From Eutreptiella sp. 'Long Island Sound 2002' (taxonomy: Eukaryota; Euglenozoa; Euglenophyceae; Eutreptiales; Eutreptiaceae): a stretch of DNA of 64,000 bases. Below, piece after piece: positions 576 through 50,562 of the stretch. The stretch lies in NCBI GenBank assembly GCA_964036045.1, contig OZ038379.1, positions 188,927,885-188,991,884 of the forward strand. The letters run 5' to 3'. Within the stretch, counting starts at the first letter, position 1. Each line of letters starts with the position of its first letter. Both the position numbers and the translations under genes were made by a program. Under the pieces are notes generated by a model that saw nothing but the letters and a program-made list of their open reading frames with translations, was not told where the DNA came from and made no database searches.

Positions 576-3051
576 GTAGACCCTTCTTAGGGTCATCGCG
601 AATCTGCATGTCCTGTAGGGGCTGCATCTTAGACGCGGCTGGTTTCCACCAGCCGTACCCCACGTCGAAACCCAAATACTCCATCTCCTCTTTCATAAAC
701 TCCCATTTTTCGAGTTTGATTCGGAGATGGTTTTCTTGACAGACAATGAAAAATTCACGAAGGAGAAGGACGTGGTCCTCTTTGGTATTAGTACCCAAAC
801 TCACGTCGTCGATGTGAGCCTCCATTTCTGCACCCCGAGAAATCAACTCTTGTACTAGAGGCCTGCGCCTCAGTATGTATAAAATTTTGTTCATAAGCTC
901 CTGGAAGAGCGCTGGGGCATTAGCCACCCCGAAAGGCATAACCTTCCACTTGAAAACACGACCCTTAGGGGTTATAAAGGCCAACAGCTCCTGAGCTGCG
1001 GCGGGTAGGTCCACCTGCCAGAAACCAGAGCGTTTGTCCATTTTGGTCTTATACCTGCATTTGGCAATACGCTCCAGGGTGTTTTCCATGTTAGGAATAC
1101 TCCCTGAGTGGTTCTGGGTTTTCTTGTTGACCTCACCATAGTCTACAACAAGACGTAGGGCAGTCGACCCTGGTTTAGCAACAAGGAAACAGGGACTGCA
1201 GTGATGGGGATAGTCTGCATGTTTATACTCTTCAACGAGGCCAGCATCAATGCATTCTTGGATCTGGCGCTCGATTTCTTCAACCTGTTCCTGTGGAGCG
1301 GGATAGGGACGACGCCTCACTCGCGTCTTTTCAAATTCTGGTTTCAATTTCAGGTGCACCTGGACCAGTTTTTTACAAGAAAGGGGAGGCGGCAAGGCGC
1401 CGAACACCTCCTCATAGGTTATCAGCAGTTTCTTCAGGCGGGGGTCAAGGTTAAGACTCTCGAGTTTCTGAAGGAAATCCTCCTCAGCATGGAGGTTGCT
1501 TTTTCCATGTTCTTTCTTTTTCTGCCGATCAGCACTTTCGGCAGGCACAGTACCATCGTCCCACTCAGTGGGACATTGCTGCCCGTAGTGTAGAGAATAC
1601 ACTAGAGGTATCTCTGGATCAGGCAGCGTATAGGACTCATCGTCCTCCTCAGACCAGATGGAGGATTTCCAAGTCTGTCTGAGGTATTGCAGCCGCTCTT
1701 GGCGCTCAATACCTTCGGCCTTCAGGTACAACAGCCGCCAGAGTTCTTGAGTGTCATGCTCAGACAATGGCATGTTATTAGCAGCAGGCCGCGCCAGAGC
1801 ATCAGCACTCCGGACCACGGGTTCACCTGTGTGCACAGGCTGCATGTGTAGCACTGGCTTCCCAACAGGGGAAGCGGATTCAGAGGTTGACTCTAGATCT
1901 ACCTCCTCTAGCAACAGCTGGGCTAGGAAAGCATTGTGTTTTAGGTCAACACAGCTGGGATCAACAGAGGGAATAGTGCTGGCGATCTCAGACAGTTGGT
2001 CGTCAGCATCCTCTTTTACAGCTGCAGGTTCCAGATAGTCATCAGGAGACTCAAACCCTGTAAGTGTGGCAAATAGGTGCTCAGGAGATCGATTTTTGAG
2101 ATCATAAAGGGTCAGGCCACGATTTTCGGCCATGACCTCTTTCAGTAGCACCTGGTCTAGGTCACACAGGGGTACAGGATTGAGAGATCCATCGACGATG
2201 GACAGGAAACTGGCCCACTCAGGGGCCTGCATAGCTGTGTCTGAGTCCTCAGGCACATAGATGGGGCCGTCGGGGAGTTGCACTCTTCCCACGGTCATTC
2301 GATCTAGCATACGGCGCCAGTAAGCATGTTCACCAGAGCAACCCCAGTCAGGGGTGCACATAACAACCCTTCCTCCCTCATAAGCGATTTTGGTTAGAAC
2401 CTTCGCGAGCAGGGAGAAGGGAGGGTTAGCATACGCCCGGCCCATTGCTTTCCAGAAGAAACGGAAAGCATTGTTCAGTTGTTTCGAGCAGTACAACTGC
2501 ATGATGTGCTGTTGTTGGCTCGCAAACAATTCCACCTGGATCTCATCCAGGTTTACCTGAAGGGCCGCCAGTCCATTTTCAAGAACGTGACGGGCCAGTT
2601 GATAGTTTTCAGTACGATAGTTCGTCTTGGCTGCGTAGCGCAGCCCAGACTCTTTTCGTCCTGACAGCTCCAAAGGAACGGAGAATAGCCCACTGCCAAA
2701 GTCGCAGTGCAAAGAATAGGGACGCTGTAGGGACAGCATTTTTACCTGGGGGTTTCTTCGTAGAAAGTCGGTGCCAATGACGATGTCAAAGGCGTCAGTG
2801 TCCAACACTCTGCAGTGTTGGGTCACGGTTTCGTCGCCCAGACATATAGTCACATCGACCCCCCCCAAGGAATGGATGGTACGCCCATCCCCTACTCTTA
2901 TGGCCACGGTCTTAGTTTTCCTGAAAGTCTTAAGCAGGCGCCGGGCCACTATGGAAAGTGTTGCACCGGTATCAAGCACCGCTCGAAAAACCTGATCCCC
3001 GATTTTCACGAGGATCCAGAAAACCAAGTCCTCCTCTTCGGAGCCGCCCCC
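576..3051 (-). CDS. pol: Element A pol, truncated: retropepsin, Dam-like domain, reverse transcriptase
   Basis: Partial polyprotein of ~825 codons, same frame as gag after the UAG at 3052-3054. An aspartic protease begins almost at once (LDTGATLS, near 2960-2990) with a later IGTDFL segment. A Dam-like methyltransferase module follows, with the motif-IV tetrapeptide NPPF at 2416-2427 preceded by a VELFAS segment and followed by a VVMCTPDW strand. After an acidic linker comes a Ty3-type RT (LVVDY, MDKRSGFWQVDL, MPFGVANAPALF). The RT catalytic box reads HIDD at 805-816, with His where Tyr or Phe is usual. The frame ends at the D-family LTR junction, so RNase H and integrase are missing here. 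An inactive relic. Confidence 0.85.
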
Positions 3052-3864: not shown

Positions 3865-4344
3865 TGTAACCGCTGCATAGTGGTTGATCTTTGTTGTAAC
3901 TGCGAAGCCTGTAGCCTTGATGCCCCAGGGGTCGTAACGCCCGACACTGCCCCTGATATCTCCGAGCCCACATAACCCTCTTCAGACCCATATCCAGCCT
4001 CCGGGAGCGACATATGCGAAGCACTTGTAAGTCCTTTGAACTCCATGGTGGAATATGAAGAGTACGAAACCCCGGTCTACAAAAATGAAGCAGACATAGA
4101 ATCTCAATGCGCATTCATCGCACATAACAACACAACGCGAAATCATTCGAAATAATTTAAATAAATCCGATTGGGAAATCACGAAAGACAAATGCGACTC
4201 GACGCGCGCTCACAGGGGACATCTGGCGGCGAACGGAAAACATGAAATGAAGCGGAAAATTTACTGCACTAATGTACATCTGAGAATCATTGAAATTCTG
4301 ATCACATCAGTGTATAATTGAGTGCTGTCACTGCTGCCGTTACA
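3865..4344 (-). repeat. Element B 3' LTR (480 bp)
   Basis: Matches 53269-53748 over its full 480 bp with about ten differences by eye. On the minus strand it runs TGTAACGG...GGTTACA. It is flanked on its outer side by CAATC (3860-3864), repeated at 53749-53753. A PPT abuts its 5' side. It contains the LTR-borne start of the B gag frame (ATG at 4046 on the minus strand, in a CCACCATGG context). Confidence 0.95.
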
Positions 4345-4374
4345 CTCCCCCTCTGAAAACATACGCCAGTATGT
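4345..4374 (-). promoter_or_regulatory. Element B polypurine tract and preceding hairpin
   Basis: Reading the minus strand, ACATAC-TGGC-GTATGT (4359-4374) forms a 6-bp stem with a 4-nt loop, followed by the purine run GAGGGGGAG (4345-4353) directly against the LTR. The PPT primes plus-strand DNA synthesis. The hairpin sits at the same place in C, E and G with different but compensating stem bases. Confidence 0.75.
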
Positions 4375-8600: not shown

Positions 8601-10389
8601 GGCATCTGATGAAAGCCATGGCGCAAATCCAACACAGTAAAGAGCTTGCCTTTGGCTCTCGCGGCGATCTCTTTCTCGATCAAAGGAAGAGGATGCGCGT
8701 CTGGTACTGTGGCGGCATTCAGGGCTCTGTAATCCACCACTAGACGCCAAGCATCTATGCTGGATTGGTCAGCAGGTGGGGGTTTTGGCACAGTAAATGG
8801 TGCTGAACACCACTCAGAACTCATGCAGCCCTCCAACCAACCGAACTCATAGAGATTGCGCTCAATAATCTTTCGCAGGGCATCTGCTTTGGTGCCTTGG
8901 AGATAGAATGGACGCTGTTTGTGCACCTTTGAGCCTTCGATTATGTCAATCTTGGCTTCCCCATTTTCACATGGAATTGGGGGGTTTTTCCACAACTTCC
9001 CACTCAGCACGTCATCTTGATAATCTTCGAACACTGCGTCCCTTCTTGCAGATATCTTGTCTCCGTCGACCTGATTCCCACATTTAATCACCGACATTAT
9101 GTCCACCAATTTGCGAATTGTTGGTCGTGGTCTCATGTTCTTGGCCACTTCATTCCAAACTTCTTCGTCGCATTGTTGGCGGATGAAGCTCACCTGAGCT
9201 CGCTCCTCCGTGGGATCCCACCAATGAAAGGGGTCCACGAATGTCTTGAAGGGATGGTCCGACGAATTCAGCTTCATTCCTGTCAATTCAGGCAAGATTC
9301 TTGGAGATTTGTCATCATTCTTGCTTGAAATCTTGACTTTTTTGGCTTGATTCTTGTCTGATGGGGACAAATTGTAATGGATGGAGGCGTTCTCTTGAGA
9401 GACGCCGATTGTCCTTCCCTCCTTCCGCGACGATACGTCGGGATTTCGCTCTCGATCGTCTTCATCCACCTCAATTTCGTCGATTCTTGAGGAATTTGAA
9501 ATGACCTCTTCTGTTCCCATTTCACTGCCATCTTGCCAATAATCTCCCAGATTCCCGTCAACTAAGCACGCCAACGTGCTCCACGAAAGCTGTGGCAAAG
9601 GCTTGCCATTGTCTTCGCAATACAGCTTCACTCCCTTGTGAGGTAGCTCGACAATGTCGATGGAAATGTCCATAATGTCCTTGAACCACTCTTGTCTTGG
9701 CCAATTGGGGACAATAAAAATCGCCTTTGGGCCGGAATCCTTCAGCTTCTGCACCACACGAGGGAAAACGTCGAAGGGCGGATTGATCCACAAAGGTTCA
9801 GACCAGTCCTCACTCCAGGCATCGTCGTAGAACTTCGGAAATCTTTTATTCTTCTTGTTTGCAAAGGCATCAACTTGAGGACGAAAATTGTGGTTCCTTT
9901 CGAAATAATCCACCAAAATGTCCCGCCATTTGTCGACTACACGATAGCAAAGTGACTTCCACTTCTTGCTGTTCAACGAATCCACCTTTCCTTCGTCGAA
10001 TTCTTCTTGATTCCCTGTCCATTCCTGCCCATCTTGCTGAAAATGCAGCTTGTTTCTCTCCTTGAATTGGTGGATACTCTTGGTATATGGGTGCAGATAA
10101 TACAAGTCAGACGGGTCGCTGGTCGACGGATCCTGGAGGAAGCACGTCCTGTGTCCCATGGGCGACACACGATGAGCGTGAAGCCATGGTTGACCCAAGA
10201 ATAAATCGTACTTTATGCTGGCCTCATAGAATTTTCCAGAAAACCACTCCTCCGTGACCGTCTCTTCCACGCTCCACACAGATTGTTTCACCAATCTGAC
10301 CGCCAATTCTGCTTCTCTGTCGCCACCGTCAAGGCGATGTCCGCTGACTCCCTCCAGCTGGACAGGTGTCGAGGACATCTTCGTCTCAT
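5691..10389 (-). CDS. pol: Element B pol, main segment (Dam-like, RT, RNase H, integrase, chromodomain), frameshifted
   Basis: Continues the protease frame from 22386-22673, interrupted by element C. In order: end of protease (DLFLGQPWL); Dam-like module with NPPF at about 9773-9784 and IFIVPNWPRQEWF after it; RT with YIDD near 8423-8434; RNase H (RTDASRYAIGA, REQEAYAI, TDHKSLE, ADALSRWAYP); integrase zinc finger (HWHRNETAHTH...CKQC) and DDE core (TADVFELG, LTDSGKEF, Glu after HRALP). A 5-bp tandem duplication (TTCAGTTCAG, 6549-6558) shifts the frame just before the catalytic Glu; the other frame then carries the end of integrase, a GPFQV segment and a chromodomain (CRWKGFDPEEDKWEP) to a UGA at 5691. 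Otherwise well preserved but not translatable as one protein. Confidence 0.88.
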
Positions 10390-10921
10390 TGAAAGTGCTG
10401 CCCTGGGTCGTTGTGGGTGCCGGAGGGCTCGGGGCCGGCAAGACCAGTGGGGCAGGCACGCGAGGAGTCTCCCTGGATGTTGTTATTGGGGGTAGAACCG
10501 GATACTCGGACACCAACAGAGGCGAGAGCAGCGACAACAGAAGCAAGGTCCATGCTGATTGTTATCCGGCAGAAAATCCCAGTCTATGAAGAAAATTGAG
10601 GGGAATTATTCTAAATACATCTGAGTGTCCAAAACTGTCTGAAAAGATTTAAATAATCCATTTATGTAAAAAGGTTTGGCCGATCTGGCCCGCGAGCGCG
10701 CGTCAGCGGCAAATGGCGATTCCAGCTAAAATAGCGGAACGCGGCGGATTTACGGGAAATGGACCGCGGAATCAAATCCGGCATATCAGAAATATATAGG
10801 AAATATCCTGTGACTGAGCTGCGAGGCGGCAATTCCGCCGAAGCAAAGAAAATGACCAAAATGTAGCCAATCTGGGCAGAATGTCTGAAAATCTGAGCAG
10901 ATGGGGCTAGCCGCACTTACA
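10390..10921 (-). repeat. Element C 3' LTR (532 bp)
   Basis: Minus strand TGTAAGTGCGGC...GCAGCACTTTCA; same length as and almost identical to 21854-22385. Its gag-leader frame (ATG at about 10553 on the minus strand) has CGA where the 5' LTR has UGA, so the intact version of the leader is kept in this copy. Confidence 0.97.
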
Positions 10922-10951
10922 CTCCCCCTCCAAAAACACACTAGGGTGTGT
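10922..10951 (-). promoter_or_regulatory. Element C polypurine tract and preceding hairpin
   Basis: Minus strand: ACACAC-CCTA-GTGTGT (10936-10951) then a short T-rich spacer and the PPT GGAGGGGGAG (10922-10931) against the LTR. A second inverted repeat, CTACGT...ACGTAG, lies just upstream near 10954-10974. Confidence 0.75.
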
Positions 10952-13797: not shown

Positions 13798-16700
13798 TCA
13801 ATTCGGCCAAGCACGAATACATGTGACCACCAACCTGTCTGGCCTGGCACTCGTACGGCTTGGGCGCTGCAAATCAGGGGCCGAACTTGAAGCTTGGTCC
13901 TCATTTGCCTCCTGGGCTGGCCTGACCGCAGGAGGGGGGATCGACGGATCAGCCCTGGAATGTGGCTGCTGAGGGCCGTAAAAGGCTGGATCTCGATTCA
14001 CCACAGGTCGTTTTCCGTCGCTCTCCACTTGTCTGTCTGGTTTCGACAAACAATCTGTCAGGAGTACACCAATTTCGGGGTGCTTCTTGAGGAAGTCGAT
14101 GAACCCCTTGGTGTACCCATGGACAAAAGATTGGGCTGGTTCCCAGTTGTTGTGACTGGAATCAAAGCCCCTCCACTCACACAGAAATTCCCATTCGCCC
14201 TTGGCGTCACGTCTTGCTTCAACAATCCTCTTGAGTTCGTACTTCCCCCCTTCGATGACCCGATCAGACAAGTGTTTCGCAGTCCAAAAAAGGGGTTTAA
14301 CTCGATCCTTGGGGGAGGAGATCTCTCTCTTGAGGCGATCGCCCGAAACGTCAATTTCCCTGCTGACATCCACACGGATCCTCCACCTGTTCTCACCAAG
14401 ACGCGCTGTAACAGCGAATGGCCCCTCCCACAAGGGAAGAAGCTTGTCATCTCCGTCCAGGGTGGTTTCGGATTTTCGAAGCCAAACTCGATCATCGACT
14501 TCAAAATTGTGGGGGTTTCTTCGACCTTGATTTTGAACCCAAAGCCAGTCAGCTTGATGCTTCTCGACTAATTTCGACACAGATTTATCTGCTCGTTGGA
14601 CTTCGTCCAAAAACAGCGAAGCATCTTTACAGGGGCGAGGATTATTCAACGGCATGTTCCACCAACACTTCTTTCGTCCAAAGACAATTTCATTTGGAGA
14701 AAGGCCATGATACAAAGGCGTGTTGTGGTAACGGCGAAGCAGTGCAAAGAGAACTTCCATCCAATGGAAATCCTTTTCACTCGCGAGCTCCTTACGAAGC
14801 ATATTAATAATTGAGCGGCCGGCTCTTTCGCCAGGCAGCGCTCGATGCGAGTGGATTTCACATCGGAGGTGGTGGATTCCAAGGCGAGCACACAATTCTC
14901 TCCACCATTCGGAGGTGTACTCTTTGCCTGAATCCGTCACCACCTCGGATGGGACGTCCCAGCCTCCCATCCAGGTCTGCGCGCACCATTTGGCGGCAGC
15001 CTTGCCAGTCATCGACTCAATGTTGCAAGGCAACACTTGAATGTAGCCGGAATGACGGCACTGAATAAGGAGCACACCATTGACTTTTTTATTAGTCCAA
15101 TGGCACTCTTCGTCATCGAGCTCACCGAGATAGAAAAAATCACTCGTGACTCTGTTAAAGAGGCGCTCCGGAATAGGATGAGGCCTCAGATGGCCGTGCT
15201 TCTTCGCGCTGGGGGGCGTCGAGACAGCACATTGGGCGCATCCGGCGGCTACTTTCATGCAGTGAGTATATAGCCGTGAGCCAAACAACCTATGTTTAAT
15301 CATCGACCACAGTCGACGGCCATGTGCGTGCGGGGACTCCCATTTGTGCCACCAGTTTAACACTCGGGGGGCTAGGGCGTCTGGCACACACAATTTACCC
15401 TCCATCCACAGCTTCCCCCCATCCAACGAATACTCAGGAAAAATCCCATCCTTGTGAGCATCTTTGGATTTGAGATTTCCAAAGACCTCTTTAAACATGG
15501 GATCCTGCAGGTAATCGGACGTCCAGTCACGGATGATCAGGGAATCTTTAGGCAGGGGTGGAGTTTTGGCCGGATCTCGTCGCTTAATGCCTTGGATCAA
15601 CCGAAATCGACTTACTTGTCGGGTATAGTCAAACCGTTTCACACTCCCTGAGGAGGGATCGGTGACTTTTTCCAAGACTTTCAGCGTTTTGGTGCAGATC
15701 TCATGGGCATGCGCCGGATCTGAGATCGCCGTGATGTCGTGACACGGCAATGCGTGCTGTTTAACAGCGCACTGCATGCATGCACGTCGAATGAGTTTCT
15801 TTTCTTCCTGATCCCATTCAATGATGACATGGCGGTCCTGCTCCGTACCATGGATGTTGGTACTTTGCAGCCCCTCTGAGGCGGGGTAAGCCCATCGGCT
15901 CAGAGCATCCGCTACCGTGTTGTGTTTTCCAGGCAAATACGACACATGGAGGTCAAACAGAGAGAGAAATTCGTGCCATCTGGCCCGTCGACCAGCTGGG
16001 CTCGCGACAGTATCAATGTGTTCAGTGGCCCAATACTCCAGAGATCGATGATCCGTCAGGACCTCGACTCGATTGGTGCCCACCCACGATTGGTACTTTT
16101 TTAGAGCGCAAATTATGGCATACGTTTCTTGCTCACGCGGCGACCATTGCATTTGGCGTGGGGCTAGCTTCCGAGACCAAAATGCAAGAGGGTAATGATC
16201 GCCGGTGGCTTCATCAACCTGTTCAAGGACAGCTCCGATCGCGTACCTAGATGCGTCGGTTCTAATGTAGAAGGGTCGGTCGAATTGAGGCACATGCAAC
16301 GTGGCGACTTCACAGAGGGCCGCCTTCAAGTGATGGAAGGCCTCCTCGCACTCGTCAGTCCACTTGACACGAACCTTTGAACCTGCCTTGCCCGCATCTC
16401 TCCCTACCTTCAATAATTCAGTGAGGGGGGCAGCAAATTTGGCATAATTCGGCACAAAAGTGTGGTAAAAATTGCAACAACCCAGGAATCCTCTCAACTC
16501 CGTGATCGTCTCAGGGCGCTTCCACTTCTGAATAGCGACGAGCTTCCCTGGACTGGGTCGTCGGGTGCCATTCTCTAGGAGAGAACCACAAAATTCGACT
16601 GATTTTAAAAATAATTTTCCCTTCTTTGGCCCACAAATCAGCTGATTGGCGTCAAGAATGTCCAAAACTTGGTTCAGCTGCTTCTCATGTAGGGCCACCA

Positions 16701-18981
16701 GCTCGGCTTCGGTCAGTCCCTCCCCTTCCGTCGCGATGATTATGTCATCTATGTACACACTCACGAAGGCACGAAGCTCAGGATGGGTTGTGAACAGCAC
16801 ATCCTCCATCATTCTTTGAAAAAATGAGCGGGCGTTCTTCAGCCCCATGGGCATGACGGTCCATTGGACTGGGCCACATGGCGTGCACATACAGGTGAGA
16901 GGTCGGCTGTCCTTCCTCAACGGCATTTGGTGAAAGCCGTGACGGAGATCCAGCACAGAAAACAAACGACCTCTTGCCCTCTTGGCGATTTCCTCCTCAA
17001 TGAGGGGCAGGGGGTGTGAATCCGCCTTGGTTTCAGCGTTGAGGTTGCGAAAATCAACCACCATTCGCCAACCATCAATGGTGTTCTGGTCTGCAGGCGG
17101 TGGCTTCGGGACTGTGAAGGGTGAACAGCACCATTCGCTGGTCATACAACCCTCAAGCCAACCAAATTCCCTGAGATTTCTCTCGATGATTTTTCTGAGG
17201 ATCTCATGTTTGTGTCCATGATTTTCATAAGGGCGCTGTTTTTTTGCCTTGTACCCTTCACGAAGCTCGATGAAGGCTTCACCGAACTGTCCACTGACAG
17301 GGGGGTCTTTGATCAACTTTCCTGAAAGGGTTGTGTCCTTCCGTTCCCCAAAAATCTTTTCTCTTGACTTGGAACACAATTCAGTGTCCACCTGATCGCC
17401 AGGAATTACTGTCGAAAAAACTTTGGCGACTTCTTCAGCTTTGGCAGGAAGAATCTTCTTACGGATGTCCCTAAACAGGTCCGTATCAACTGCCTCTTGA
17501 AGATGGGTGGGTCGTGTGTCGAAATCCCAGAGATTCTCTTCGCGATCCAGCTCCTCGAAAGGATCCATGAAAGCTTCCACAGGGGGTTTTTCATAAAAAA
17601 CTCTGAATTTGCAGCGCGATTGGAGATTTTTCCTCGCCCGTGCACTGAAGATTCTTTTCGATGTCGACCGTATTGGGGAAGAGGGAGACGAGGCGGATCC
17701 ATTGGACGTTGAATCACCTTGGGTATCTGACGGACAAAAATCAGAAAAAATAGATTCATCATCAGTACCACGCTCAACCTCAGATTCAGACCCAACACAG
17801 GAATCTGTACTAGAATCAGCAGAATTAGAGTCAGAAAGCTTTCCATCCACCAGGAATGCAAGCGAACTCCAGGACCGCTGTGGCAGGGGACCTGTGTCGT
17901 CCCTGGCATACAGCTTAATCTTCCTGGGAAGTTCGATGTAATCTACACAAATGTCCTGTAATTCCTGAAACCAAGGCTTGTCGTCCCACAAGGGCACAAC
18001 CAAAATTGCCTGGGTTTTATCTTGCTTGATTTTGTGGATGACCTGCTGGATTAAGTGAAACGGAGGATTAATCCACAACTTCTTGTCCCATTTGTGGGTC
18101 CAAGCGTCGCTGAAGTGCTTGTCAAAGCGCTTATTCATACGGTTAGCAAAGGCATCATACTGGGGCCAAAAGGAATGATGTTCATGAAAGTATTCACAAA
18201 TTGCATCGCGCCATTTGTCGACAACTCTGTAGGATGAAGAGTGCCAGCGCGAAGGGCGTCGTGGCTGGGAGTCCCTACGAAGACATTCTAACTCTTGGGA
18301 GTAATCGGCACTCCCATTCACCTCTGCAATGGTGACATCTTCACCAAATTTTGGTGTCACCTTTTGCTTCAAAAATTCTTCTGCACTTTTAAACCCTGCG
18401 TGCAAAAAACGAAATTCAGGACGCTCCAAAGGACCTGACTCCAGCAAAAAACAACGACGATGACCTACGGGCGCTACCCTGTTCTTGCGAAGCCAAGGGT
18501 GGCCCAAATAAAGGTCATACTTTATGTCAGCACGATAGAAGTAGTCATCCTTAAGGACAACTTCTTCCACATTTTGCTCTTCCCAAAGGTCTTGAGCGAC
18601 CAAATGGGTTGATATATAACAACCGCGTTGCCCACCTGCGAGAGAATGTCCAGAAACTCCCTCGAGGGTAACAGGATGAGGCGATTCAAACACGCAGTCG
18701 TCGGGTAAGAATGAATTGGATTGGAGATTTACCTCTGATCCATTGTCACACAAACAAGTGGCGAGATGGAAATTTCCCTTGCAATCAGAGACCCACAGCT
18801 TTGTGACAAACTGACGAGCCCTGTGCTTGGACTGTACACCAACCTCGTCCACTACGACAGAAGGATCCGCTGCCGGATCCAGGGGAGAGGAGACAAGCGA
18901 CCCTACATCAAGTAATGGTCGATCAGGAATCTGGGGATCATGCCTGAAATCGCCTGGGGAGGGGCGATTTTCGTGGCTCCC
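13798..18981 (-). CDS. pol: Element C pol polyprotein (protease, Dam-like, RT, RNase H, integrase, chromodomain)
   Basis: One open frame of about 1,727 codons from just after the gag UAG to a UGA at 13798-13800. Protease with CDNGSEVN (Asn in place of the usual Ser/Thr) and DLYLGHPWL. Dam-like module: QYDAFANR, LWINPPF (NPPF at 18058-18069), AILVVPLWDDKPWF, ELPRKIKLYARDD. RT with VVDF, LDLRHGFHQMPL, MPMGLKNARSFF and YIDD at 16744-16755. RNase H (TDASRYAIG, REQETYAI, TDHRSLE, ADALSRWAYP). Integrase with His/Cys finger ending CAQC, then TSDFF, VTDSGKEY and GERAGR. GPFAV segment, chromodomain (YELKRI, CEWRGFD, NNWEP) and a ~70-residue tail. Translation likely needs UAG readthrough. KNARSF replaces the near-universal NAP, so RT activity is doubtful. 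Confidence 0.93.
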   Translation of the reverse strand, partial: GSHENRPSPGDFRHDPQIPDRPLLDVGSLVSSPLDPAADPSVVVDEVGVQSKHRARQFVTKLWVSDCKGNFHLATCLCDNGSEVNLQSNSFLPDDCVFESPHPVTLEGVSGHSLAGGQRGCYISTHLVAQDLWEEQNVEEVVLKDDYFYRADIKYDLYLGHPWLRKNRVAPVGHRRCFLLESGPLERPEFRFLHAGFKSAEEFLKQKVTPKFGEDVTIAEVNGSADYSQELECLRRDSQPRRPSRWHSSSYRVVDKWRDAICEYFHEHHSFWPQYDAFANRMNKRFDKHFSDAWTHKWDKKLWINPPFHLIQQVIHKIKQDKTQAILVVPLWDDKPWFQELQDICVDYIELPRKIKLYARDDTGPLPQRSWSSLAFLVDGKLSDSNSADSSTDSCVGSESEVERGTDDESIFSDFCPSDTQGDSTSNGSASSPSSPIRSTSKRIFSARARKNLQSRCKFRVFYEKPPVEAFMDPFEELDREENLWDFDTRPTHLQEAVDTDLFRDIRKKILPAKAEEVAKVFSTVIPGDQVDTELCSKSREKIFGERKDTTLSGKLIKDPPVSGQFGEAFIELREGYKAKKQRPYENHGHKHEILRKIIERNLREFGWLEGCMTSEWCCSPFTVPKPPPADQNTIDGWRMVVDFRNLNAETKADSHPLPLIEEEIAKRARGRLFSVLDLRHGFHQMPLRKDSRPLTCMCTPCGPVQWTVMPMGLKNARSFFQRMMEDVLFTTHPELRAFVSVYIDDIIIATEGEGLTEAELVALHEKQLNQVLDILDANQLICGPKKGKLFLKSVEFCGSLLENGTRRPSPGKLVAIQKWKRPETITELRGFLGCCNFYHTFVPNYAKFAAPLTELLKVGRDAGKAGSKVRVKWTDECEEAFHHLKAALCEVATLHVPQFDRPFYIRTDASRYAIGAVLEQVDEATGDHYPLAFWSRKLAPRQMQWSPREQETYAIICALKKYQSWVGTNRVEVLTDHRSLEYWATEHIDTVASPAGRRARWHEFLSLFDLHVSYLPGKHNTVADALSRWAYPASEGLQSTNIHGTEQDRHVIIEWDQEEKKLIRRACMQCAVKQHALPCHDITAISDPAHAHEICTKTLKVLEKVTDPSSGSVKRFDYTRQVSRFRLIQGIKRRDPAKTPPLPKDSLIIRDWTSDYLQDPMFKEVFGNLKSKDAHKDGIFPEYSLDGGKLWMEGKLCVPDALAPRVLNWWHKWESPHAHGRRLWSMIKHRLFGSRLYTHCMKVAAGCAQCAVSTPPSAKKHGHLRPHPIPERLFNRVTSDFFYLGELDDEECHWTNKKVNGVLLIQCRHSGYIQVLPCNIESMTGKAAAKWCAQTWMGGWDVPSEVVTDSGKEYTSEWWRELCARLGIHHLRCEIHSHRALPGERAGRSIINMLRKELASEKDFHWMEVLFALLRRYHNTPLYHGLSPNEIVFGRKKCWWNMPLNNPRPCKDASLFLDEVQRADKSVSKLVEKHQADWLWVQNQGRRNPHNFEVDDRVWLRKSETTLDGDDKLLPLWEGPFAVTARLGENRWRIRVDVSREIDVSGDRLKREISSPKDRVKPLFWTAKHLSDRVIEGGKYELKRIVEARRDAKGEWEFLCEWRGFDSSHNNWEPAQSFVHGYTKGFIDFLKKHPEIGVLLTDCLSKPDRQVESDGKRPVVNRDPAFYGPQQPHSRADPSIPPPAVRPAQEANEDQASSSAPDLQRPSRTSARPDRLVVTCIRAWPN

Positions 18982-18984
18982 CTA
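18947..18984 (-). promoter_or_regulatory. Element C gag/pol readthrough UAG with predicted pseudoknot
   Basis: Identical in sequence to 42977-43014 in E. UAG GGG AGC is followed by sequence in which GGGAG can pair with CTCCC in the loop of a hairpin AAATCGCC/GGCGATTT, giving an H-type pseudoknot. Pol is open in the same frame. Prediction by eye only. Confidence 0.55.
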
Positions 18985-21900
18985 GGCGTTCTGACCTCCA
19001 GCGGCTGCGTTAACATTGTGAACACAGCCTGATTCGTCGATCCACTCATCTTGGAACGGATCATCCGCTGGATTCAGGGCATTTTCGACATAATCTCGAT
19101 CCGCATCGGACACCTGATCTGCACCTGAGACCTGATCCACACGATGATTGCCCTTTCCTCGTCCACGGCCACGGCCGCCGGATGATGGGCCACCACCGTC
19201 GCCACGCCCTCTGCCCTTACCAGAGAAAGGGGTTCCTGAAGGATTTCCCTTACCTTTACCCTGTGATCCTGGAGCATTTCCTTTGTTAGTACCGGATTGA
19301 GGGGTTTGGCCTGGATTTAGATTTCCGCCTCCGGCGTTGCCATTGGGACTTGTCTGGCCGTTTGGCTGCCCACCGAAGCCGGATGGAGTCCGATTTCCTT
19401 TGCCTTGGGACCCGCCAGGGCCTCCAGTGTTTTTGTTTCCACCGGAGGGGGTCGGATTACCCTTTCCCCCCTTAGCACCATGCACCTGTCTGTCATTCCT
19501 GTCTGAATTCTGCGAATTACTGACATTTTCACCAATCACTTTGTGATCGTAAGCAGACCATCGGTGATTAGCAGTAGAATGCGTCTTAGCTCGGTTCGTA
19601 GAACCTAAAAGAAGGCAGATGCTACAATGATCCTGAACATTCCGGGTGTCATTCACCTTTTTGTTGCCCTTTTGGGCCCCATTTTGGGTGTTTTGCTGGG
19701 TATTCCTGTTTCCCCCAAGACCCTCATGGAAATTTTGATTGGCGGCGTCAGCGAGCCTCTCAACCTCTTCCCACAGTTCCTGCGGGGTAAACGAAAACAC
19801 CCAGTTCCTGGCCTTCAGGCGATGGCCGTGGAAACTTACTCCCCTGTTGAGGACTTGGACAAACAAGTCCCGATCCTCGTGTTCATTAAACTTGATTTTC
19901 CACGTGTTTTCAGTGAATTTCACCTTGGTAAACGACGTGGGGGAGCACTTTTGAAGTGCCTCCCTGACGGTAAACCGGTTGGCCGAGGCGTCAAAGCCAT
20001 CGACTTCCGCCCACCAGGTCTTGACCTTTTCTTCGGACTGTTTATTCCGAAGGGTGGCGGCGGTTTCTGAGGGGATCTTGTCAAAAATCAGATTTTTCAG
20101 CTCGGCACTGGAAAATTTTTCGCCTGAATGTTCAGATTCTTCTACGAGATTCCAGAAGCGCTGTCTCTTGTCCTGCACTTCGTGCAAGATTAATCGCGAG
20201 AACGAAGGAAAATTCTTCAACATCTGGTGGTAATGGTCCTCAGGCAGCCGGGATCCACGTACCTCCAACTGTTCCCACACCTCATCAAAGGTAAGGGGGG
20301 AACTTGAATCCTCACGATCACTCCAGGTCCTGAGCCAAGTGTTGGCCGGCGCTCCCTCAAGGCAGTCCAAGAGCGCCATCAGGAACTGATCATCCTGGAG
20401 TTTTTGAGTCTTAACCCACAGTTTAAATTCCCGTTGGAACTGAGGCCAACGTCTGGGGTTCCCATTATACTTCGGTTGCTTGGCAACCTGACGAAGTCGC
20501 AATGAAGTGGGATTTAGAAGTGAATCCAGCTCAACACCGGCCGTAATGGCAGACACCTTGGCGGCATCATTAGCCACACCAGCTCCGGCGAGGGTCTGGG
20601 CGAGCAACATCTGGGCAATTGCATTGGAATCAACAGCAGGAAGGGTAGTACGGGAGGCAGTTCGTTTGGCATTCTGAGCCTCATTCCTAGCCTTCACCGA
20701 TCTACTCTGAGATCGAGAGATGGTAACCCTTTCCTTTAGCTTAGTCCTGCTGATCCTTGCGTCGGTGGTCTTAGAGTCCACCGAAGGGGCGATCGAAAAA
20801 ATTTCTGTCGCCTCCTCCGACGGTTCTGCTGTTTGTTCCACCGAAGATGCGCCCTCAGACCTCATGTGGGTCTTGAAAAGATCTTTAATTCCCAGCGTCT
20901 GAATGATGAGTTGCATTTGATCTTTGAGCAATTGGAGCTCAGTATCTCGCTGTAATCTGCAAGAGCAGTCGGCAGGACAGTACATACCGTGTCCTGAAGG
21001 GCCTGAGCAGGCTGTCGGACAGCTAATCTCAGTGGTTCGCAGCCAGGAGTCCACTTGGGGAGCTCCTTCAGTCCTAATTTCCAGGCTTGCCTGCCTAGCT
21101 GCCTCTAAAATTCCTTCCTCAACCGCGGCGGCTAGATCGTCGCGGATGGACACAGAGGGATGAGGGGCGGAGGGCCCGGCGACAGGTGCCTTGGCCTTCT
21201 CCTTCGGGAAGGGGCTTGCCTCCCAGATCTGCAAAAAAATGGCAAAAGATTCATCTTCTTGAGAACACCACCACATCCTGGTATTAATTTCTTCTTGAAG
21301 AAGGAAAAAATATTCAAATACAAAATCAGAGGCGATTCTTTCTTGTCCTATCAGCTTAGACGTGGCTAACAGACAAAGGGCCTCGAGACTCTGAAGGTTA
21401 CGGGTCACTTCTGAAGACAAATGGTTGTCCCATTGTGCCAAAGAGTCTGGTCGATTATAGGTAGGTACCTCACCTGGACCACCCATCTCAATGTCGTCAA
21501 TGTCGGCGTCGATGGTCTCAAAATGTGGACATTGGTAAGGAGTATTAGTACCTGCCAGGTCGGTAAGCTCCACCGGAGCGTTGCCATTAGCGTAGGCTGG
21601 GAGATTCCAGCTGCTTGATGGCCAATTTCGACTGGGATCTTGATTGTAATCTGGGCCTCCACAGCTGCTGATTCGTGCCCTTCTTGGGCAATTTGGGCTT
21701 GCGCAAGGCAGTCCTCTCAAGGCCTCGTTCGAACAGCACCACGGCAGCGTAATCGTTACGTCTCCGGAGGTGGCGGAGTCTACGGGGCCGTACTGGGGAG
21801 CTAGCTGTGGTTGGGACACCAAAGGAACAACATTCAGGTAGCCTCTGCTACCATGAAAGTGCTGCCCTGGGTCGTTGTGGGTGCCGGAGGGCTCGGGGCC

Positions 21901-22017
21901 GGCAAGACCAGTGGGGCAGGCACGCGAGGAGTCTCCCTGGATGTTGTTATTGGGGGTAGAACCGGATACTCAGACACCAACAGAGGCGAGAGCAGCGACA
22001 ACAGAAGCAAGGTCCAT
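18982..22017 (-). CDS. gag: Element C gag, starting inside the 5' LTR; one stop in the leader
   Basis: The frame starts at an ATG (22015-22017) within the 5' LTR, crosses the LTR end and the PBS, and runs to the UAG at 18982-18984. The homologous E frame is open over the same region. In C a UGA at 21970-21972 breaks the LTR-encoded leader; no ATG follows soon in frame. Features: a Cys-rich N-terminal patch (LPWCC, CASPNCPRR), a second Cys cluster (CPTACSG...CPADCSCR) followed by a short helical stretch, a capsid-like helical domain (PKYNGNPRRWPQFQREF; RLPEDHYHQMLKNF), a finger-like C-SIC-...-TH-...-H motif (near 19610) and a Gly/Asn/Pro-rich tail with RG repeats, likely nucleic-acid binding. 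Confidence 0.88.
21842..21853 (-). promoter_or_regulatory. Element C primer-binding site (initiator tRNA-Met)
   Basis: Immediately after the 5' LTR the minus strand reads TGGTAGCAGAGG, complementary to the last 12 bases of the common eukaryotic initiator tRNA-Met. It starts minus-strand DNA synthesis and also lies within the gag frame. Confidence 0.88.
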
Positions 22018-22385
22018 GCTGATTGTTATCCGGCAGAAAATCCCAGTCTATGAAGAAAATTGAGGGGAATTATTCTAAATACATCTGAGTGTCCAAAACT
22101 GTCTGAAAAGATTTAAATAATCCATTTATGTAAAAAGGTTTGGCCGATCTGGCCCGCGAGCGCGCGTCAGCGGCAAATGGCGATTCCAGCTAAAATAGCG
22201 GAACGCGGCGGATTTACGGGAAATGGACCGCGGAATAAAATCCGGCATATCAGAAATATATAGGAAATATCCTGTGACTGAGCTGCGAGGCGGCAATTCC
22301 GCCGAAGCAAAGAAAATGACCAAAATGTAGCCAATCTGGGCAGAATGTCTGAAAATCTGAGCAGATGGGGCTAGCCGCACTTACA
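21854..22385 (-). repeat. Element C 5' LTR (532 bp)
   Basis: Pairs with 10390-10921. Contains the gag start codon (22015-22017) and about 54 codons of leader, with a UGA at 21970-21972 that is CGA in the 3' LTR. Followed on the minus strand by the PBS. Confidence 0.97.
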
Positions 22386-22706
22386 CTCATCCTCCTGCAG
22401 AAAGCCTTTCCTCACCAGATTGACCTCTGAACCATTGTCAATCAGACATCTGGCAAGTTTAACCTTACCATCCGTCGATCTGACCTGGATTCAGCAGACA
22501 AACTGGCGCTGCTTGCCTCGCCGGACAGCGCTGAGGACCCAGGCAGGGTAAAGGAGGCCGGAGGAGCGCGCCAGCCGTTCCCAGCAGCGTCCATCCACCG
22601 CCCCAACTACCCTGATGGGTTTTGTCTCCTGCCACTCAACCCCAGTGTTGGGATTTGGGTCAAGTTGGCTTCCCTATTGCCATTCTTCTTCTTCGTTCGG
22701 CTGTAC
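22386..22706 (-). CDS. Element B gag end, UAG junction and protease segment
   Basis: Small island of element B between C (left) and D (right). On the minus strand it gives the acidic last codons of gag (EEEEWQ), a UAG at 22674-22676, then GGA AGC and an open pol frame leading to the protease: SEVN follows Asp-Asn-Gly, like the protease of C and E. An in-frame UGA just before the protease β-strand (in the place where C has Thr after QFV) is a second nonsense codon. Both ends of the island are defined by TSDs (GTAC with D, CTCAT with C), and the frame continues correctly across each insertion. Confidence 0.82.
22662..22676 (-). promoter_or_regulatory. Element B gag/pol readthrough site (UAG GGA AGC)
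   Basis: TGG CAA UAG GGA AGC CAA, with pol open in the same frame. The six bases after the UAG match the GGR-RGC pattern of A, C and E although the surrounding protein sequence is quite different. No convincing pseudoknot drawn. Confidence 0.5.
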
Positions 22707-22748
22707 TGAAGCGGTACCCAGAACCCCATGGCTAGGTTAGGGCATACA

Positions 22749-22823
22749 ACCGGTCTCCGGTCCACTAACCCCATGTACGGAAGGGAAGACCGGTCTCCGG
22801 TCCACTAACCCCATGTACGGAAG
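22749..22823 (+). repeat. 38-bp tandem duplication near the start of the D LTR
   Basis: Two copies of a unit beginning ACCGGTCTCCGGTCCACTAA and ending TGTACGGAAGG, 38 bp apart. The same duplication is in the 3' LTR at about 36351-36425. It lies in the presumed U3 region; whether it is a regulatory repeat is unknown. Confidence 0.85.
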
Positions 22824-25694: not shown

Positions 25695-25725
25695 GCGTCC
25701 CGTGGCCCGCCCCCCACGGGAACGC
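25695..25725 (+). promoter_or_regulatory. Terminal hairpin of the D LTR
   Basis: GCGTCCCGTGG pairs with CCACGGGAACGC (one bulge), ending 4 bases before the LTR tip. Also at 541-572 and 39284-39314. Might be part of the U5 structure that positions reverse transcription; function not known. Confidence 0.6.
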
Positions 25726-25729
25726 GTCA

Positions 25730-30502: not shown

Positions 30503-31722
30503 AGGATGGTGACGTGGGAAGCGCCGAACCATCCCAGTCGGGAGTCGATAAGCACAAGGGGACTGCCGCGGGCGGAAGGCCCGGTCCAGCACCCAGTCGC
30601 GGAGGTGGGGTGAGGGCAAGTGAAGGCACGAACCCTTGCACCCATCCGTCCTTCGCGACCAAGAATGTGTTTGATGTACTACAAGATCTATCCGAGAGTA
30701 TCGGAGGATCACCCGGACCGCAGCTGGATGCTGCAGATGGGCAGCCTGAGCCCATTGTCCACGACCTGCACCAGTCGCTTGTTGAGCTTCTGGAACGGCC
30801 AGAGATCCTGAGTTTGCACGCCGTGCGCCGTGTCGGTCGCGAGCGGCAGTTGCATCTTAAGGTCCGTGCCCTATGCGGGGAGGTGGAAAAGGTTTTCGAC
30901 GTGTTGGTTGACACGGGCGCTCAGGTCAGCTTGGTCAAGGCTGGCCTACTTCCGCCAGAGTGTCTGACGGACAGTCGGAAACCTGTCAGGCTGAAGGTGG
31001 CGAACGGCCAGTACATGGTGGGAGGCACGAAGGAAGCAGCCATTGGGCTGCAGTTCGTGAACTATCGTGAGCTGAGCCGCCCAGACCTCGGCAAGGAAAT
31101 CCTCCTGCACGGTCGCTTCTACGAGGCCGAGATGGACTGGGACATGATCGTTGGGTACGACTTCATGATGGAGACGGACTCCGGCGTCCTCCCGGCCCAG
31201 GCCTCCATGACCCTGTACCAGGACGACCAGCTCTCGTGGCTTTCGTCACCTGAGCACCATGTGGAATGCCAATGGATCCACCCCAAGCGCAATCAGCTCG
31301 AAGTGGCCGCGCTGGACACTGAGCCCACTGGGCCAGCAAACCAGGAGTACGGCGTAATGCCGGAAGTGGCGAACCGAGTGGTCGCGGACCTGGGAGCGTC
31401 GGATCTGGCCCTGGATGCGTTCTCTTCAGGAACCTCCGCCCATCTTCGGGTATGTGAGAAGTACTGGAGCGCCCAGGACTCCGCGTGGAAGAAGCACTGG
31501 GGTCCGCATCAGGGCTTGATGTGGATCCATTGCCCTCGATGGGACATTCCAAGAGCGATAGCGAAGATTCGCAAGGACCGCTCCAAGGCAGTGCTGGTTG
31601 TTCCTATGGGATGCACCGAGGAGGAAAGTACCCGACATTGGGTTGCCTCATTGACCAACATGACCTTGAACAAGGTCGTCCTACCGGCTGGAGAGAGTGT
31701 CTATCAGGACGCTAAGGGATAG
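30463..31722 (+). CDS. pol: Element D pol part 1: retropepsin and degenerate Dam-like domain
   Basis: Frame-1 segment following gag. Low-complexity lead, then an aspartic protease (VLVDTGAQVSLVKAG near 30900-30945; later IVGYDFMM). It is followed by a Dam-like module recognisable from DLALDAFSSG, AIAKIRKDRSKAVLVVPMG and a KVVLPAGESVY strand, but the motif-IV tetrapeptide is replaced by HCPRWD (31525-31545), so methyltransfer is unlikely. The frame stops at UAG 31720-31722; the next part of the module (PPQRWPTEFHYVDGGL) continues one frame over. Confidence 0.82.
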   Translation, partial: RSPCSQGPELGRSQDGDVGSAEPSQSGVDKHKGTAAGGRPGPAPSRGGGVRASEGTNPCTHPSFATKNVFDVLQDLSESIGGSPGPQLDAADGQPEPIVHDLHQSLVELLERPEILSLHAVRRVGRERQLHLKVRALCGEVEKVFDVLVDTGAQVSLVKAGLLPPECLTDSRKPVRLKVANGQYMVGGTKEAAIGLQFVNYRELSRPDLGKEILLHGRFYEAEMDWDMIVGYDFMMETDSGVLPAQASMTLYQDDQLSWLSSPEHHVECQWIHPKRNQLEVAALDTEPTGPANQEYGVMPEVANRVVADLGASDLALDAFSSGTSAHLRVCEKYWSAQDSAWKKHWGPHQGLMWIHCPRWDIPRAIAKIRKDRSKAVLVVPMGCTEEESTRHWVASLTNMTLNKVVLPAGESVYQDAKG

Positions 31723-39300: not shown

Positions 39301-39318
39301 CCCCACGGGAACGCGTCA
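36309..39318 (+). repeat. Element D 3' LTR (3,010 bp)
   Basis: Pairs with 22707-25729; same termini, internal duplication and terminal hairpin (39284-39314). Followed by the TSD GTAC and then element B gag sequence on the minus strand. Confidence 0.94.
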
Positions 39319-39579: not shown

Positions 39580-40113
39580 TGTAAGTGCGGCTAACCCCCA
39601 TCTGCTCAGATTTTAGCAGATCTGCCCCAGATTGGCTACATTTTGGTCATTTTCTCTGCTTCGGCGGAATCGCCGCCCCGCAGCTCAGTCTCAGGATCAG
39701 ACCTATATATTTCTGATGTGCCGGATCTGATTCCGCGGTCCATTCATCGTAAATCCGCCGCGTTCCGATCATTTACCCGGAATCGCCATTTGCCGCTGAC
39801 GCGCGTGCGCGAGCCAGATCGGCCAAATATTTTTTCACAATCGGATTTATATAAATCTTTTCAGACAGATATGGACACTCAGATGTACTTAGAATAATCC
39901 GCATCAATTTTCTTCATAGACTGGGATTTTTTGCCGGATAACAATCAGCATGGATCTTGCCTCCGTTGTCGCCGCTCTTGCCTCCGTTGGTGTCCGTGTA
40001 TCCGGTTCTGCCCCCAACAGCAGCGTTCAGGTCGACTCCTCGCGTGCCTGCCCCCCCGGTCTTGCCGGCCCTGAGCCCTCCGGCACCATCAACGACCTAG
40101 GGCAGCACTTTTA
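39580..40113 (+). repeat. Element E 5' LTR (534 bp)
   Basis: TGTAAGTGCGGC...GCACTTTTA; the terminal CA is mutated to TA (it is CA in the 3' LTR). Contains the gag ATG at 39950-39952. Upstream of the ATG is an AT-rich stretch with TATATATTT (39703-39711) and TTATATAAA (39846-39854) that could serve the promoter. Confidence 0.97.
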
Positions 40114-43014: not shown

Positions 43015-46000
43015 CAGGCATGATCCCCAGATTCCTTCTCGACCACTAGTTGATGTAGGGTCGCTTGTCTCCTCTCCCCTGGATCCGGCAGCGGATCCTT
43101 CTGTTGTAGTGGACGAGGTTGGTGTACAGTCCAAGCACAGGGCCCGTCAGTTTGTCACAAAGTTGTGGGTCTCTGATTGCAAGGGCAATTTCCACCTCGC
43201 CACTTGTTTGTGTGACTATGGATCGGAGTTAAATCTCCAATCCAATTCTTTCTTACCCGACGACTGCGTGTTTGATTCGCCTCATCCTGTTACCCTCGAG
43301 GGAGTTTCTGGACATTCTCTCGCAGGTGGGCAACGCGGTTGTTATATATCAACTCATTTGGTCGCTCAAGACCTTTGGGAAGAAGGCAATGTGGAGGAAG
43401 TTATCCTTAAGGATGACTACTTCTATCGTGCCGACATAAAGTATGACCTTTAGTTGGGCCATCCTTGGCTTCGCAAGAACAGGGTGGCGCCCCTAGGTCA
43501 TCGGCGTTGTTTTTTGCTGGAGTCAGGTCCCTTGGAGCGTCCTGAATTTCGTTTTTTGCACGCAAGGTTCAAAAGTGCAGAAGAATTTTTGAAGCAAAAG
43601 GTTACACCAAAGTTTGGCGAAGATGTCACCATTGCAGAGGTGAATGGGAGTGCCGATTACTCCCGAGAGTTAGAATGTCTTCGTAGGGACTCCCAGCCAC
43701 GACGCCCTTCGCGCTGGCACTCTTCATCCTACAGAGTTGTCGACAAATGGCGCGATACAATTTGTGAATTTTTTTATGAACACCATTCCTTTTGGCCACA
43801 GTATGATGCCTTTGCTAACCGCGAGAACAAGCGCTTTGACAAGCACTTTCGCGACGCTTGGACCCATAAATGGGACAAGAAGTTATGGATTAATCCTCCG
43901 TTTCACTTAATCCAGCAGGTCATCCACAAAATCAAGCAAGATAAAACCCAGGCGATTTTAGTTGTGCCCTTGTGGGACGACAAGCCTTGGTTTCAGGAAT
44001 TGCAAGACATTTGTGTAGATTACATCGAACTTCCCAGGAAGATTAAGCTGTATGCCAGGGACGACACAGGTCCCCTGCCACAGCGGCCCTGGAGTTCGCT
44101 TGCATTCCTGGTGGATGGAAAGCTTTCTGACTCTGATTCTGCTGATTCCTGTGTTGGGTCTGAATCTGAGGTTGAGCGTGGTACTGATGATGAATCTATT
44201 TTTTCTGATTTTTGTCCGTCAGATGCCCAAGGTGATCCAACGTCAAATGGATCTGCCTCGTCTCCCTCTTCCCCAATACGATCTACATCCAAAAGAATCT
44301 ACGGCGCACGGACGACAAAAAAATTTTCTTCGCGTCGCAAATTCAGAGTTTTTGATGAAAAACCCCGTGTGGAAGCTTTCATAGATCCTTTCGAGGAGCT
44401 CGATCACGAAGAGAATCTCTGGAATGTCGACACTCGATCCACCTATCTTCAAGAGGCAGTTGATACGGACCTTTTTAGGGACATCCGTAAGAAGATTCTT
44501 CCTGCCAAGGCCGAAGAAATCGCCAAAGCTTTTTCGACAGTAATTCCTGGCGATCAGGTGGACACTGAGTTGTGTTCCAAGAAAAGAGACAAGATTTTTG
44601 AGGAACGGAAGGACACAACCCTTTCGGGGAAGTTGATCAAAAACCCCCCTGTCCGTGGGCAGTTCGGTGAAGCCTTCATCGAGCTTCGTGAAGGGTACAA
44701 GGCGAAGAAACAGCGTCCTTATGAGAACCATGGACATAAACATGAGATCCTCAGAAAAATCATCGAGAGAAATCTCAGGGAATTTGGTTGGCTTGAGGGT
44801 TGTATGACCAGCGAGTGGTGCTGTGCACCCTTCACAGTCCCGAAGCCGCCGCCTGCAGACCAGAACACTATTGATGGTTGGCGAATGGTTGTTGATTTTC
44901 GCAACCTCAACGCCGAAACCAAGGCGGATTCACACCCCCTGCCCCTCATTGAGGAGGAAATCGCCAAGAGGGCAAGAGGTCGTTTGTTTTCTGTGCTGGA
45001 TCTCCGTCACGGCTTTCACCAAATGCCGTTGAGGAAGGACAGCCGACCTCTCACCTGTATGTGCACGCCATGTGGCCGTGTCCAGTGGACAGTCATGCCC
45101 ATGGGCCTGAAGAACGCCCCTTCGTTTTGTCAAAGAATGATGGAGGATGTGCTTTTTACAGCTCATCCTGAGCTTCGTGCCTTCGTGAGTGTGTACATAG
45201 ATGACATAATCATCGCGACAGAGGGGGAGGGACTGACCAAAGCCGAGCTGTTGGCCCTACATGAAAAGCAGCTGAACCAGGTTTTGGACATTCTTGATGC
45301 CAATCAGCTGATTTGTGGGCCAAAGAAGGGAAAACTATTTTTAAAATCAGTCGAATTTTGTGGTTCTCTCCTTGAGAATGGCACCCGACGACCCAGTCCA
45401 GGGAAGCTCGTCGCTATTCAGAAGTGGAAGCGCCCTGAGACGATCACAGAATTGAGAGGATTCCTGGGTTGTTGCAATTTTTACCACACTTTTGTGCCGA
45501 ATTATGCCAAATTTGCTGCCCCCCTCACTGAATTTTTGAAGGTAGGGAGAGATGCAGGCAAGGCAGGTTCAAAGGTTCGTGTCAACCGGACTGACGAGTG
45601 CGAGGAGGCCTTCCATCACTTGAAGGCGGCCCTCTGCGAAGTCGCCACGTTGCATGTGCCGAAATTCGACCGACCCTTCTACATAAGAACCGACGCTTCT
45701 AGGTACGCGATCGGAGCTGTCCTTGAACAGGTTGGTGACGCCACAGATGATCATTACCCTCTTGCATTTTGGTCTCGGAAGCTAGCTCCACGCCAGATGC
45801 AATGGTCACCGCGTGAGCAAGAGACTTATGCCATAATCTGTGCGCTGAAGAAGTACCAATCGTGGGTTGGCACCAATCGAGTCGAGGTCCTGACGGATCA
45901 TCGATCTCTGGAGTATTGGGCCACCAAACACATTGATACTGTCGCGAGCCCAGCTGGTCGACGGGCCAGATGGCACGAATTTCTCAGTCTGTTTGACCTC

Positions 46001-50028: not shown

Positions 50029-50562
50029 TGTAAGTGCGGCTAACCCCCATCTGCTCAGATTTTAGCAGATCTGCCCCAGATTGGCTACATTTTGGTCATT
50101 TTCTCTGCTTCGGCGGAATCGCCGCCCCGCAGCTCAGTCTCAGGATCAGACCTATATATTTCTGATGTGCCGGATCTGATTCCGCGGTCCATTTTCCGTA
50201 AATCCGCCGCGTTCCGATCATTTACCCGGAATCGCCATTTGCCGCTGACGCGCGTGCGCGAGCCAGATCGGCCAAATATTTTTTCACAATCGGATTTATA
50301 TAAATCTTTTCCGACAGATATGGACACTCAGATGTACTTAGAATAATCCGCATCAATTTTCTTCATAGACTGGGATTTTTTGCCGGATAACAATCAGCAT
50401 GGATGTTGCCTCCGTTGTCGCCGCTCTTGCCTCCGTTGGTGTCCGTGTATCCGGTTCTGCCCCCAGCAGCAGCGTTCAGGTCGACTCCTCGCGTGCCTGC
50501 CCCCCCGGTCTTGCCGGCCCCGAGCCCTCCGGCACCATCAACGACCTAGGGCAGCACTTTCA
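50029..50562 (+). repeat. Element E 3' LTR (534 bp)
   Basis: TGTAAGTGCGGC...GCACTTTCA; pairs with 39580-40113. Its gag-leader frame (ATG 50399-50401) is also open to the LTR end. Confidence 0.97.

Follow-up and report, generated by a model that had tools for sequence, protein, structure and literature searches.

A module homologous to the phage-type DNA N6-adenine methyltransferases (Dam; Pfam family PF05869) is embedded in the pol polyproteins of Ty3/gypsy retrotransposons of the euglenophyte Eutreptiella sp. 'Long Island Sound 2002'. The elements in question lie in a 64,000-nt stretch of contig OZ038379.1 (assembly GCA_964036045.1; positions 188,927,885 to 188,991,884), here called the window, which holds several nested long terminal repeat (LTR) retrotransposons and is part of the genome that was searched (2.28 Gb, 2205 contigs). 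In five elements of the window, named A to E, the module is encoded upstream of the reverse transcriptase (RT). It is predicted to adopt a methyltransferase fold, its hosts are Ty3/gypsy rather than DIRS elements, and its amino acid sequence is under constraint between C and E. As to its function, we slightly favor the reading that a phage-type Dam domain was captured into Ty3/gypsy pol and works as an adenine methyltransferase on nucleic acid of the element itself in those families that keep the motif IV residues NPPF, catalysis having been lost in the D family.

Homology of the module to phage-type Dam

A profile built from six modules, including those of A, B, C, and D, was compared with all 1318 six-frame peptides of at least 30 amino acids from the window and found exactly five copies:

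17815..18294, minus strand: Dam-like module of element C pol; profile match, PF05869 21.5 bits, E 2e-4 (isolated module); NPPF at 18058-18069
43667..44146, plus strand: Dam-like module of element E pol; profile matches; NPPF at 43892-43903
9530..10003, minus strand: Dam-like module of element B; PF05869 E 4.1e-5, PHROG 111 E 1.4e-7, TIGR01712 E 2e-4 (isolated module); NPPF at 9773-9784
2161..2670, minus strand: Dam-like module of element A; PF05869 E 1e-3; NPPF at 2416-2427; ELFAS..Q as motif I
31285..31719, plus strand: Dam-like module of element D; PF05869 E 6.1e-4, phage-only profile E 1.7e-6; motif IV reads HCPR

An earlier, sequence-only reading of this DNA had placed NPPF at these positions in A, B, and E and within 17930-18260 in C, and each of the four indeed lies within a long pol open reading frame (ORF); the residues quoted from the module of C pol are likewise present in the sequence. 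Its identification of the module as a Dam-like methyltransferase is supported by matches of both profiles and predicted fold to methyltransferases, the lack of which would have spoken against it. Among Pfam families, PF05869 is the top match for all five isolated window modules (E 4.1e-5 to 1e-3) and the sole one at E<0.05 for each, unrelated matches appearing for two of them at E 0.079 and 0.17. The window modules score 19.2-23.8 bits, all under the curated cut-off of 28.1 bits, which is passed by relatives at other loci of the genome (L009, 38.7 bits, E 1.1e-9; L015, 36.4 bits; L013, 36.3 bits; L014, 28.9 bits). When whole ORFs were scanned at E<=1, PF05869 matched four of the five window pols (E 0.0034-0.011) and gave no match to that of B. 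Scoring of 150 candidates out of 3813 in the genome as a whole yielded 93 PF05869 matches, all above the cut-off, and in 14 control genomes the same scan gave matches in E. coli only.

Other methyltransferase models point in the same direction. PHROG 111, annotated as 'DNA methyltransferase', matches every window module but that of D, with the best value in B, as well as L013 (E 5.4e-11) and L009 (E 4.3e-9). TIGR01712 (phage_N6A_met), an equivalog model with a cut-off of 97.05 bits, matches the modules of B (20.9 bits), D, and A, and gives only unrelated matches for C and E (E 0.16 and 0.32); its cut-off is not reached, the best score being 36.4 bits in L013. Orphan-methyltransferase models of PADLOC match L015 (1.1e-5) and L009 (3.2e-7), and PADLOC gave no match for the window modules of C and B. 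In a single profile-profile comparison, the five window modules matched four phage Dams with 98% probability (E 2.1e-13), while RT from the same elements, used as a control against the same phage profile, reached 0.8%. A profile of the four phage proteins alone, a control mildly biased because a relative of the module had served to select these proteins by similarity, matched D (E 1.7e-6), A (0.0014), E (0.011), and C (0.015); B pol was unmatched, and nothing else was found in the window at E<=10 or in 20 shuffles. Chance similarity is contradicted by the genome-wide PF05869 matches compared with the controls, by the 98% versus 0.8% comparison, and by the window scan with its shuffles.

The L015 module matched 904 phage records by tblastn at E<=10; among the 30 matches listed, the best has E 2e-3, and 22 of the 23 annotated ones are called methyltransferase or methylase. 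No relatives were found by tblastn of the C, B, and A modules against viral_contigs or of the B module against prokaryote genome_contigs, and the module profile had no relevant match among the sequences of solved structures (best E 0.59, eIF3L). A homologous-protein search with C and B returned six distinct proteins (ENA), all with RT and five with RNase H, one cluster among them comprising 4843 sequences.

In an alignment of 10 rows, the module is collinear with the four phage Dams over the full domain, with W, P, and W invariant throughout, while no more than one row departs from D, A, A, W, and N. The identity of the modules to the first phage protein aligned is 16-24%. The sequence-only reading had found no obvious motif for binding S-adenosylmethionine (SAM); a putative one, D-x-F-A-x(3)-N, aligns with D-x-A-A-x(3)-N of the four phage Dams, which likewise have no glycine loop at this place. 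D-x-[AF]-A-x(3)-N, in the first core strand, is present in B, C, E, L009, L013, and L015 and is altered in A (E...Q) and in D, which keeps D, has S for A, and has no N. Besides this motif, A-x(4)-W, W-x-NPP[YF], a hydrophobic strand, and a W are shared with the phage-type Dams described by PF05869, TIGR01712, and PHROG 111, as is the class I fold. Unlike these enzymes, the modules are embedded in a retrotransposon polyprotein, some families have NAPF or HCPR as motif IV, and the N-terminal W-x-TPP and C-terminal R-x-x-F are missing, judged against the four phage proteins only. The proposed GR-x-KF-like strand was not confirmed: where the phage Dams have R-x-x-F, the modules have LP followed by a different continuation.

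Structure prediction with AlphaFold2 gave models of the C module (predicted local distance difference test, pLDDT, 80.1; predicted template modeling score, pTM, 0.77) and of the A module (pLDDT 70.9, pTM 0.70). The predicted fold is that of class I, SAM-dependent methyltransferases, with N6-adenine enzymes prominent among the matches. Against viral structures, the C model has 25 matches at E<=1e-3, nine of them named DNA N-6-adenine-methyltransferase, and phage Dams are among its best viral matches; the others are two further methylases, three PCIF1/WW-domain proteins, one uncharacterized protein, and 10 unnamed ones, to which the top two belong. The 50 PDB matches listed for the C model are mostly methyltransferases, the remainder being spermidine synthase, AzeJ, a CbiT entry, an uncharacterised protein, and an acetyltransferase. 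An RNase H-like tether fold was considered and rejected, there being no RNase H among these 50.

Host elements, families, and position of the module

The host elements are Ty3/gypsy, as the sequence-only reading had stated. C and E are bounded by LTRs and have the RT-RNase H-DDE integrase order in pol, and E is flanked by a target duplication:

13798..18852, minus strand: pol ORF of element C, with module, RT, RNase H, integrase, and chromodomain
18982..21822, minus strand: gag-like ORF of element C, so called from its position upstream of pol, with a weak DUF1759 match (E 0.034) only
10390..10931, minus strand: 542-bp 3' LTR of element C, sharing 99.3% identity with its 5' counterpart
21854..22395, minus strand: 5' LTR of element C, partner of 10390..10931
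43454..48151, plus strand: pol ORF of element E, with module, RT, RNase H, integrase, and chromodomain
39580..40111, plus strand: 5' LTR of element E, sharing 98.7% identity with its 3' counterpart; flank ATCAT
50029..50560, plus strand: 3' LTR of element E; two further bases complete TG...CA ends and the 5-base target duplication ATCAT

The domains after the module in C and E pol were identified by Pfam, D carries the same set, and the integrase (rve) scores are under the Pfam cut-off in the scanned pols. No match to tyrosine recombinase (PF00589) was found in the five window ORFs (E<=1), in six further window ORFs (E<=0.1), or in six ORFs of the genome loci (E<=0.1). By domain content rather than by clade placement, the elements resemble the chromodomain Ty3/gypsy elements (chromoviruses and similar) in the RT-RNase H-integrase order and in the chromodomain of C, D, and E; they have in addition the Dam-like module before RT.

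It is very improbable that these are DIRS-type elements, or that the match is due to chance or to a different fold, for example an RNase H-like tether. The former idea gains something from the closeness of DIRS RT and RNase H to those of Ty3/gypsy, the two being at times confused according to the part of PMC2685390 consulted. DIRS misclassification is contradicted by the LTRs of C and E, the target duplication of E, the DDE integrase and chromodomain matches, and the negative result for tyrosine recombinase in the scanned ORFs; the position of the module before RT also differs from the DIRS order, in which a methyltransferase follows RT and RNase H. Against chance or another fold stands the agreement of the profile and fold matches on methyltransferases.

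According to Pfam, the module of A, C, E, L009, L013, L015, and L014 precedes RT; the same position follows from the motif in B (residue 254, RT at 587-762) and from the order of ORFs in D. The more specific claim of a place between protease and RT is supported by Pfam in A, whereas in B, C, and E the protease was recognized by eye; in D, the ORF of the module also has a sub-threshold protease match, and RT lies in the next, overlapping ORF. The pol of this window copy of D, at 30514-35443, is split into two overlapping frames, and its RT box reads FVED, compared with FVDD in three relatives.

Beyond the window, 28 genome loci (L001-L028) were read from the PF05869 matches. They comprise 24 copies of the L009 type, three of another family (L013, L015, and L025), and one copy of B (L014). 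In L009 itself, pol combines the module with RT, RNase H, H2C2, and rve domains. Searches of the genome with the modules of B and D gave a match for 150 of 150 scored candidates each, out of 20038 and 23433 first-look candidates, respectively, which are not confirmed copies; many open frames are of 1658 codons for B and about 1660-1673 codons for D. Two frames are unusually long, one of 2729 codons with a B module (G000:C10:49772303) and one of 2365 codons with a D module (C3:104793274), possibly gag and pol read as one frame. Trees of the module and of RT both group B with P5, C and E with P4, the L009 copies with one another, and L013 with L015. A and D form long branches without a settled place in either tree, and the trees therefore do not decide between one and several acquisitions.

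Motif IV, selection, and possible function

Motif IV differs among the families. NPPF is carried by A, B, C, E, the three copies of the L013 type, and the B copy L014. In the L009 family, 22 of the 24 copies have NAPF, one NTPF, one NASF, and none NPPF. All six copies of the D family that were read (window copy L033 included) have HCPR; the five from outside the window are top matches of the D-module search, which favors D's own motif. However, all but three of the 150 scored matches of that search are at least 99% identical over 145 residues, too close to accommodate the three changes that NPPF would require. The frame is open through the RT box in the three D copies with FVDD.

In known enzymes, the N and the aromatic residue of motif IV hold the adenine, and N-[IL]-P-[YF] serves in KsgA and Erm. 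NAPF is therefore not necessarily inactive, whereas the D module, with neither the N nor the aromatic residue, is probably a pseudoenzyme. Of the five window modules, however, D matches the phage-only profile best, so that its fold was retained after the loss of the motif; judged from these sequences, the fold is kept while motif IV is not universal among the families.

The constraint on the module was estimated from C and E, which are window copies not selected by module score. The ratio of non-synonymous to synonymous substitution rates (dN/dS) is 0.15 for the module, compared with 0.09 for RT, 0.12 for RNase H, 0.04 for integrase, 0.31 for the chromodomain, and 0.42 for the spacer after the module, showing that the amino acid sequence of the module is under constraint. 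B and L014 give 0.23 for the module, 0.16 for RT, and 0.66 for the spacer. L013 and L015 point in the opposite direction, with one synonymous and 12 non-synonymous changes, too few to carry weight. For the L009 family, a comparison of 23 copies with L009 gives a corresponding ratio of differences (pN/pS) of 0.21 for the module, 0.36 for RT, 0.41 before the module, and 0.44 after it, values that are biased towards the module because the copies were selected by PF05869 score.

The following course of events could account for these data. A phage-type N6-adenine methyltransferase domain of the PF05869 kind would have been captured into the pol polyprotein of Ty3/gypsy elements; it is now part of pol upstream of RT in at least six families (A, B, C/E, D, the L009 type, and the L013 type). 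Because it precedes RT in pol, the module would be made together with RT and would probably come to lie with the template and cDNA. In the NPPF families (A, B, C/E, and the L013 type), the protease may free the module or leave it joined to RT, and the adenine methyltransferase may then act within the particle on nucleic acid of the element. The most probable substrate is the new cDNA, which would enter the nucleus methylated, by analogy with what has been proposed for DIRS elements with a cytosine methyltransferase domain. Loss of catalysis is probable in the D family, where the domain may persist with a binding or structural role in the RT complex; in the NAPF family, either a catalytic or a binding role is possible.

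The strongest competitor, to which we give about one chance in three, is that the module is in all families a methyltransferase-fold pseudoenzyme that binds nucleic acid or SAM and aids RT, cDNA handling, or particle assembly. Several observations weigh on its side and against a catalytic role. HCPR occupies motif IV in every copy read of the abundant D family with its many open frames, and yet D is the best match to the phage profile, which suggests that a non-catalytic role is sufficient in at least one abundant lineage. NAPF prevails in a family whose module stays constrained. The 10 residues invariant in the five window modules (A1 numbering: Y28, F55, A70, W75, P84, K94, P107, W114, L128, and P129) include only P84 from motif IV. 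Because other families have NAPF or HCPR, the conservation of NPPF, from which the sequence-only reading had argued for a function, is no general argument for catalysis. On the other side, NPPF is kept in four lineages whose modules are 20-50% identical, for which there would be no clear reason without catalysis. Adenine methylation of element nucleic acid seems to be the simplest reading for the NPPF families, and cDNA would be the likelier target. That the module is instead an RNA adenine methyltransferase, placing N6-methyladenine on element RNA before or during packaging, is an unlikely variant.

Other features of the window and relation to known systems

Element C (10390-22395) appears to be inserted into the protease region of element B (junctions 10389 / 22396), because protease-like residues stop at 22396 and B pol continues below 10390; position 10546, where the B ORF appears to start, falls within an LTR of element C. 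The spliced-leader motif of dinoflagellates is absent from the window, a negative of little weight. A direct repeat of 3 kb with 97% identity (22707-25729 / 36309-39318) lies directly outside elements C and E, and its end recurs at 1-578 (about 94%). A sixth pol fragment at 57912-60185 has RT, RNase H, and integrase and is truncated at RT; no module was found there in the one upstream frame translated or in the six-frame profile scan. Two copies of a 481-bp direct repeat with 98% identity (3865-4345 / 53269-53749), about 49 kb apart, are possibly LTRs of another family.

Dam-like methyltransferases are known from DIRS pol, where the order is RT, RNase H, methyltransferase, and were detected with PF05869 in fungi (PMC3783388, as far as the text was available). 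The domain there belongs to the same Pfam family and lies likewise within a retroelement pol. In contrast to the elements described here, which have LTRs and a DDE integrase and in which the module precedes RT, DIRS pol combines these domains with a tyrosine recombinase and has no protease, DDE integrase, or LTRs, according to the available parts of PMC3783388 and PMC2685390; the comparison is by description, not by sequence. Cytosine DNA methyltransferases (DNMTs) have been described in LINE and DIRS elements of Symbiodinium and in a Gypsy element of Klebsormidium (PMC5890265, in the sections at hand). The latter, KnitGypsy-Dnmt3, also has a DNA methyltransferase in Gypsy pol and is under purifying selection, but these cytosine enzymes are stated there to be structurally unrelated to Dam-like ones; the proposal of cDNA methylation was made in the same source for DNMT-bearing DIRS elements. 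Among excerpts of other papers, PMC6338049 contains a single ambiguous phrase on DAM in Ty3/Gypsy, PMC12477816 deals with a different case, a ParB-methyltransferase gene carried as an accessory by a DNA transposon, and the excerpt of PMC12695648 makes no mention of DIRS. We do not assert that a Dam-like module in Ty3/gypsy pol is unpublished, the literature search being incomplete.

In one paper, Dam-like domains are called DIRS-specific. This rule fails, because such a module is a regular pol domain in very abundant Ty3/gypsy families of one genome, and a fresh look at how DIRS and Ty3/gypsy evolved may be in order. A bolder view, tentative and rather doubtful, is that the module is old and standard in a large Ty3/gypsy radiation, that it would mark the element's own cDNA by adenine methylation in the NPPF families and serve as a non-catalytic cofactor of RT in D, and that it would share its ancestry with the DIRS methyltransferase, passed on from such an LTR lineage to DIRS or the other way round. 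The series of NPPF, NAPF, and HCPR in one genome constitutes a natural test of catalysis versus binding in the methyltransferase domains of retroelements. If active, the module would be an element-encoded source of N6-methyladenine in the DNA of a eukaryote.
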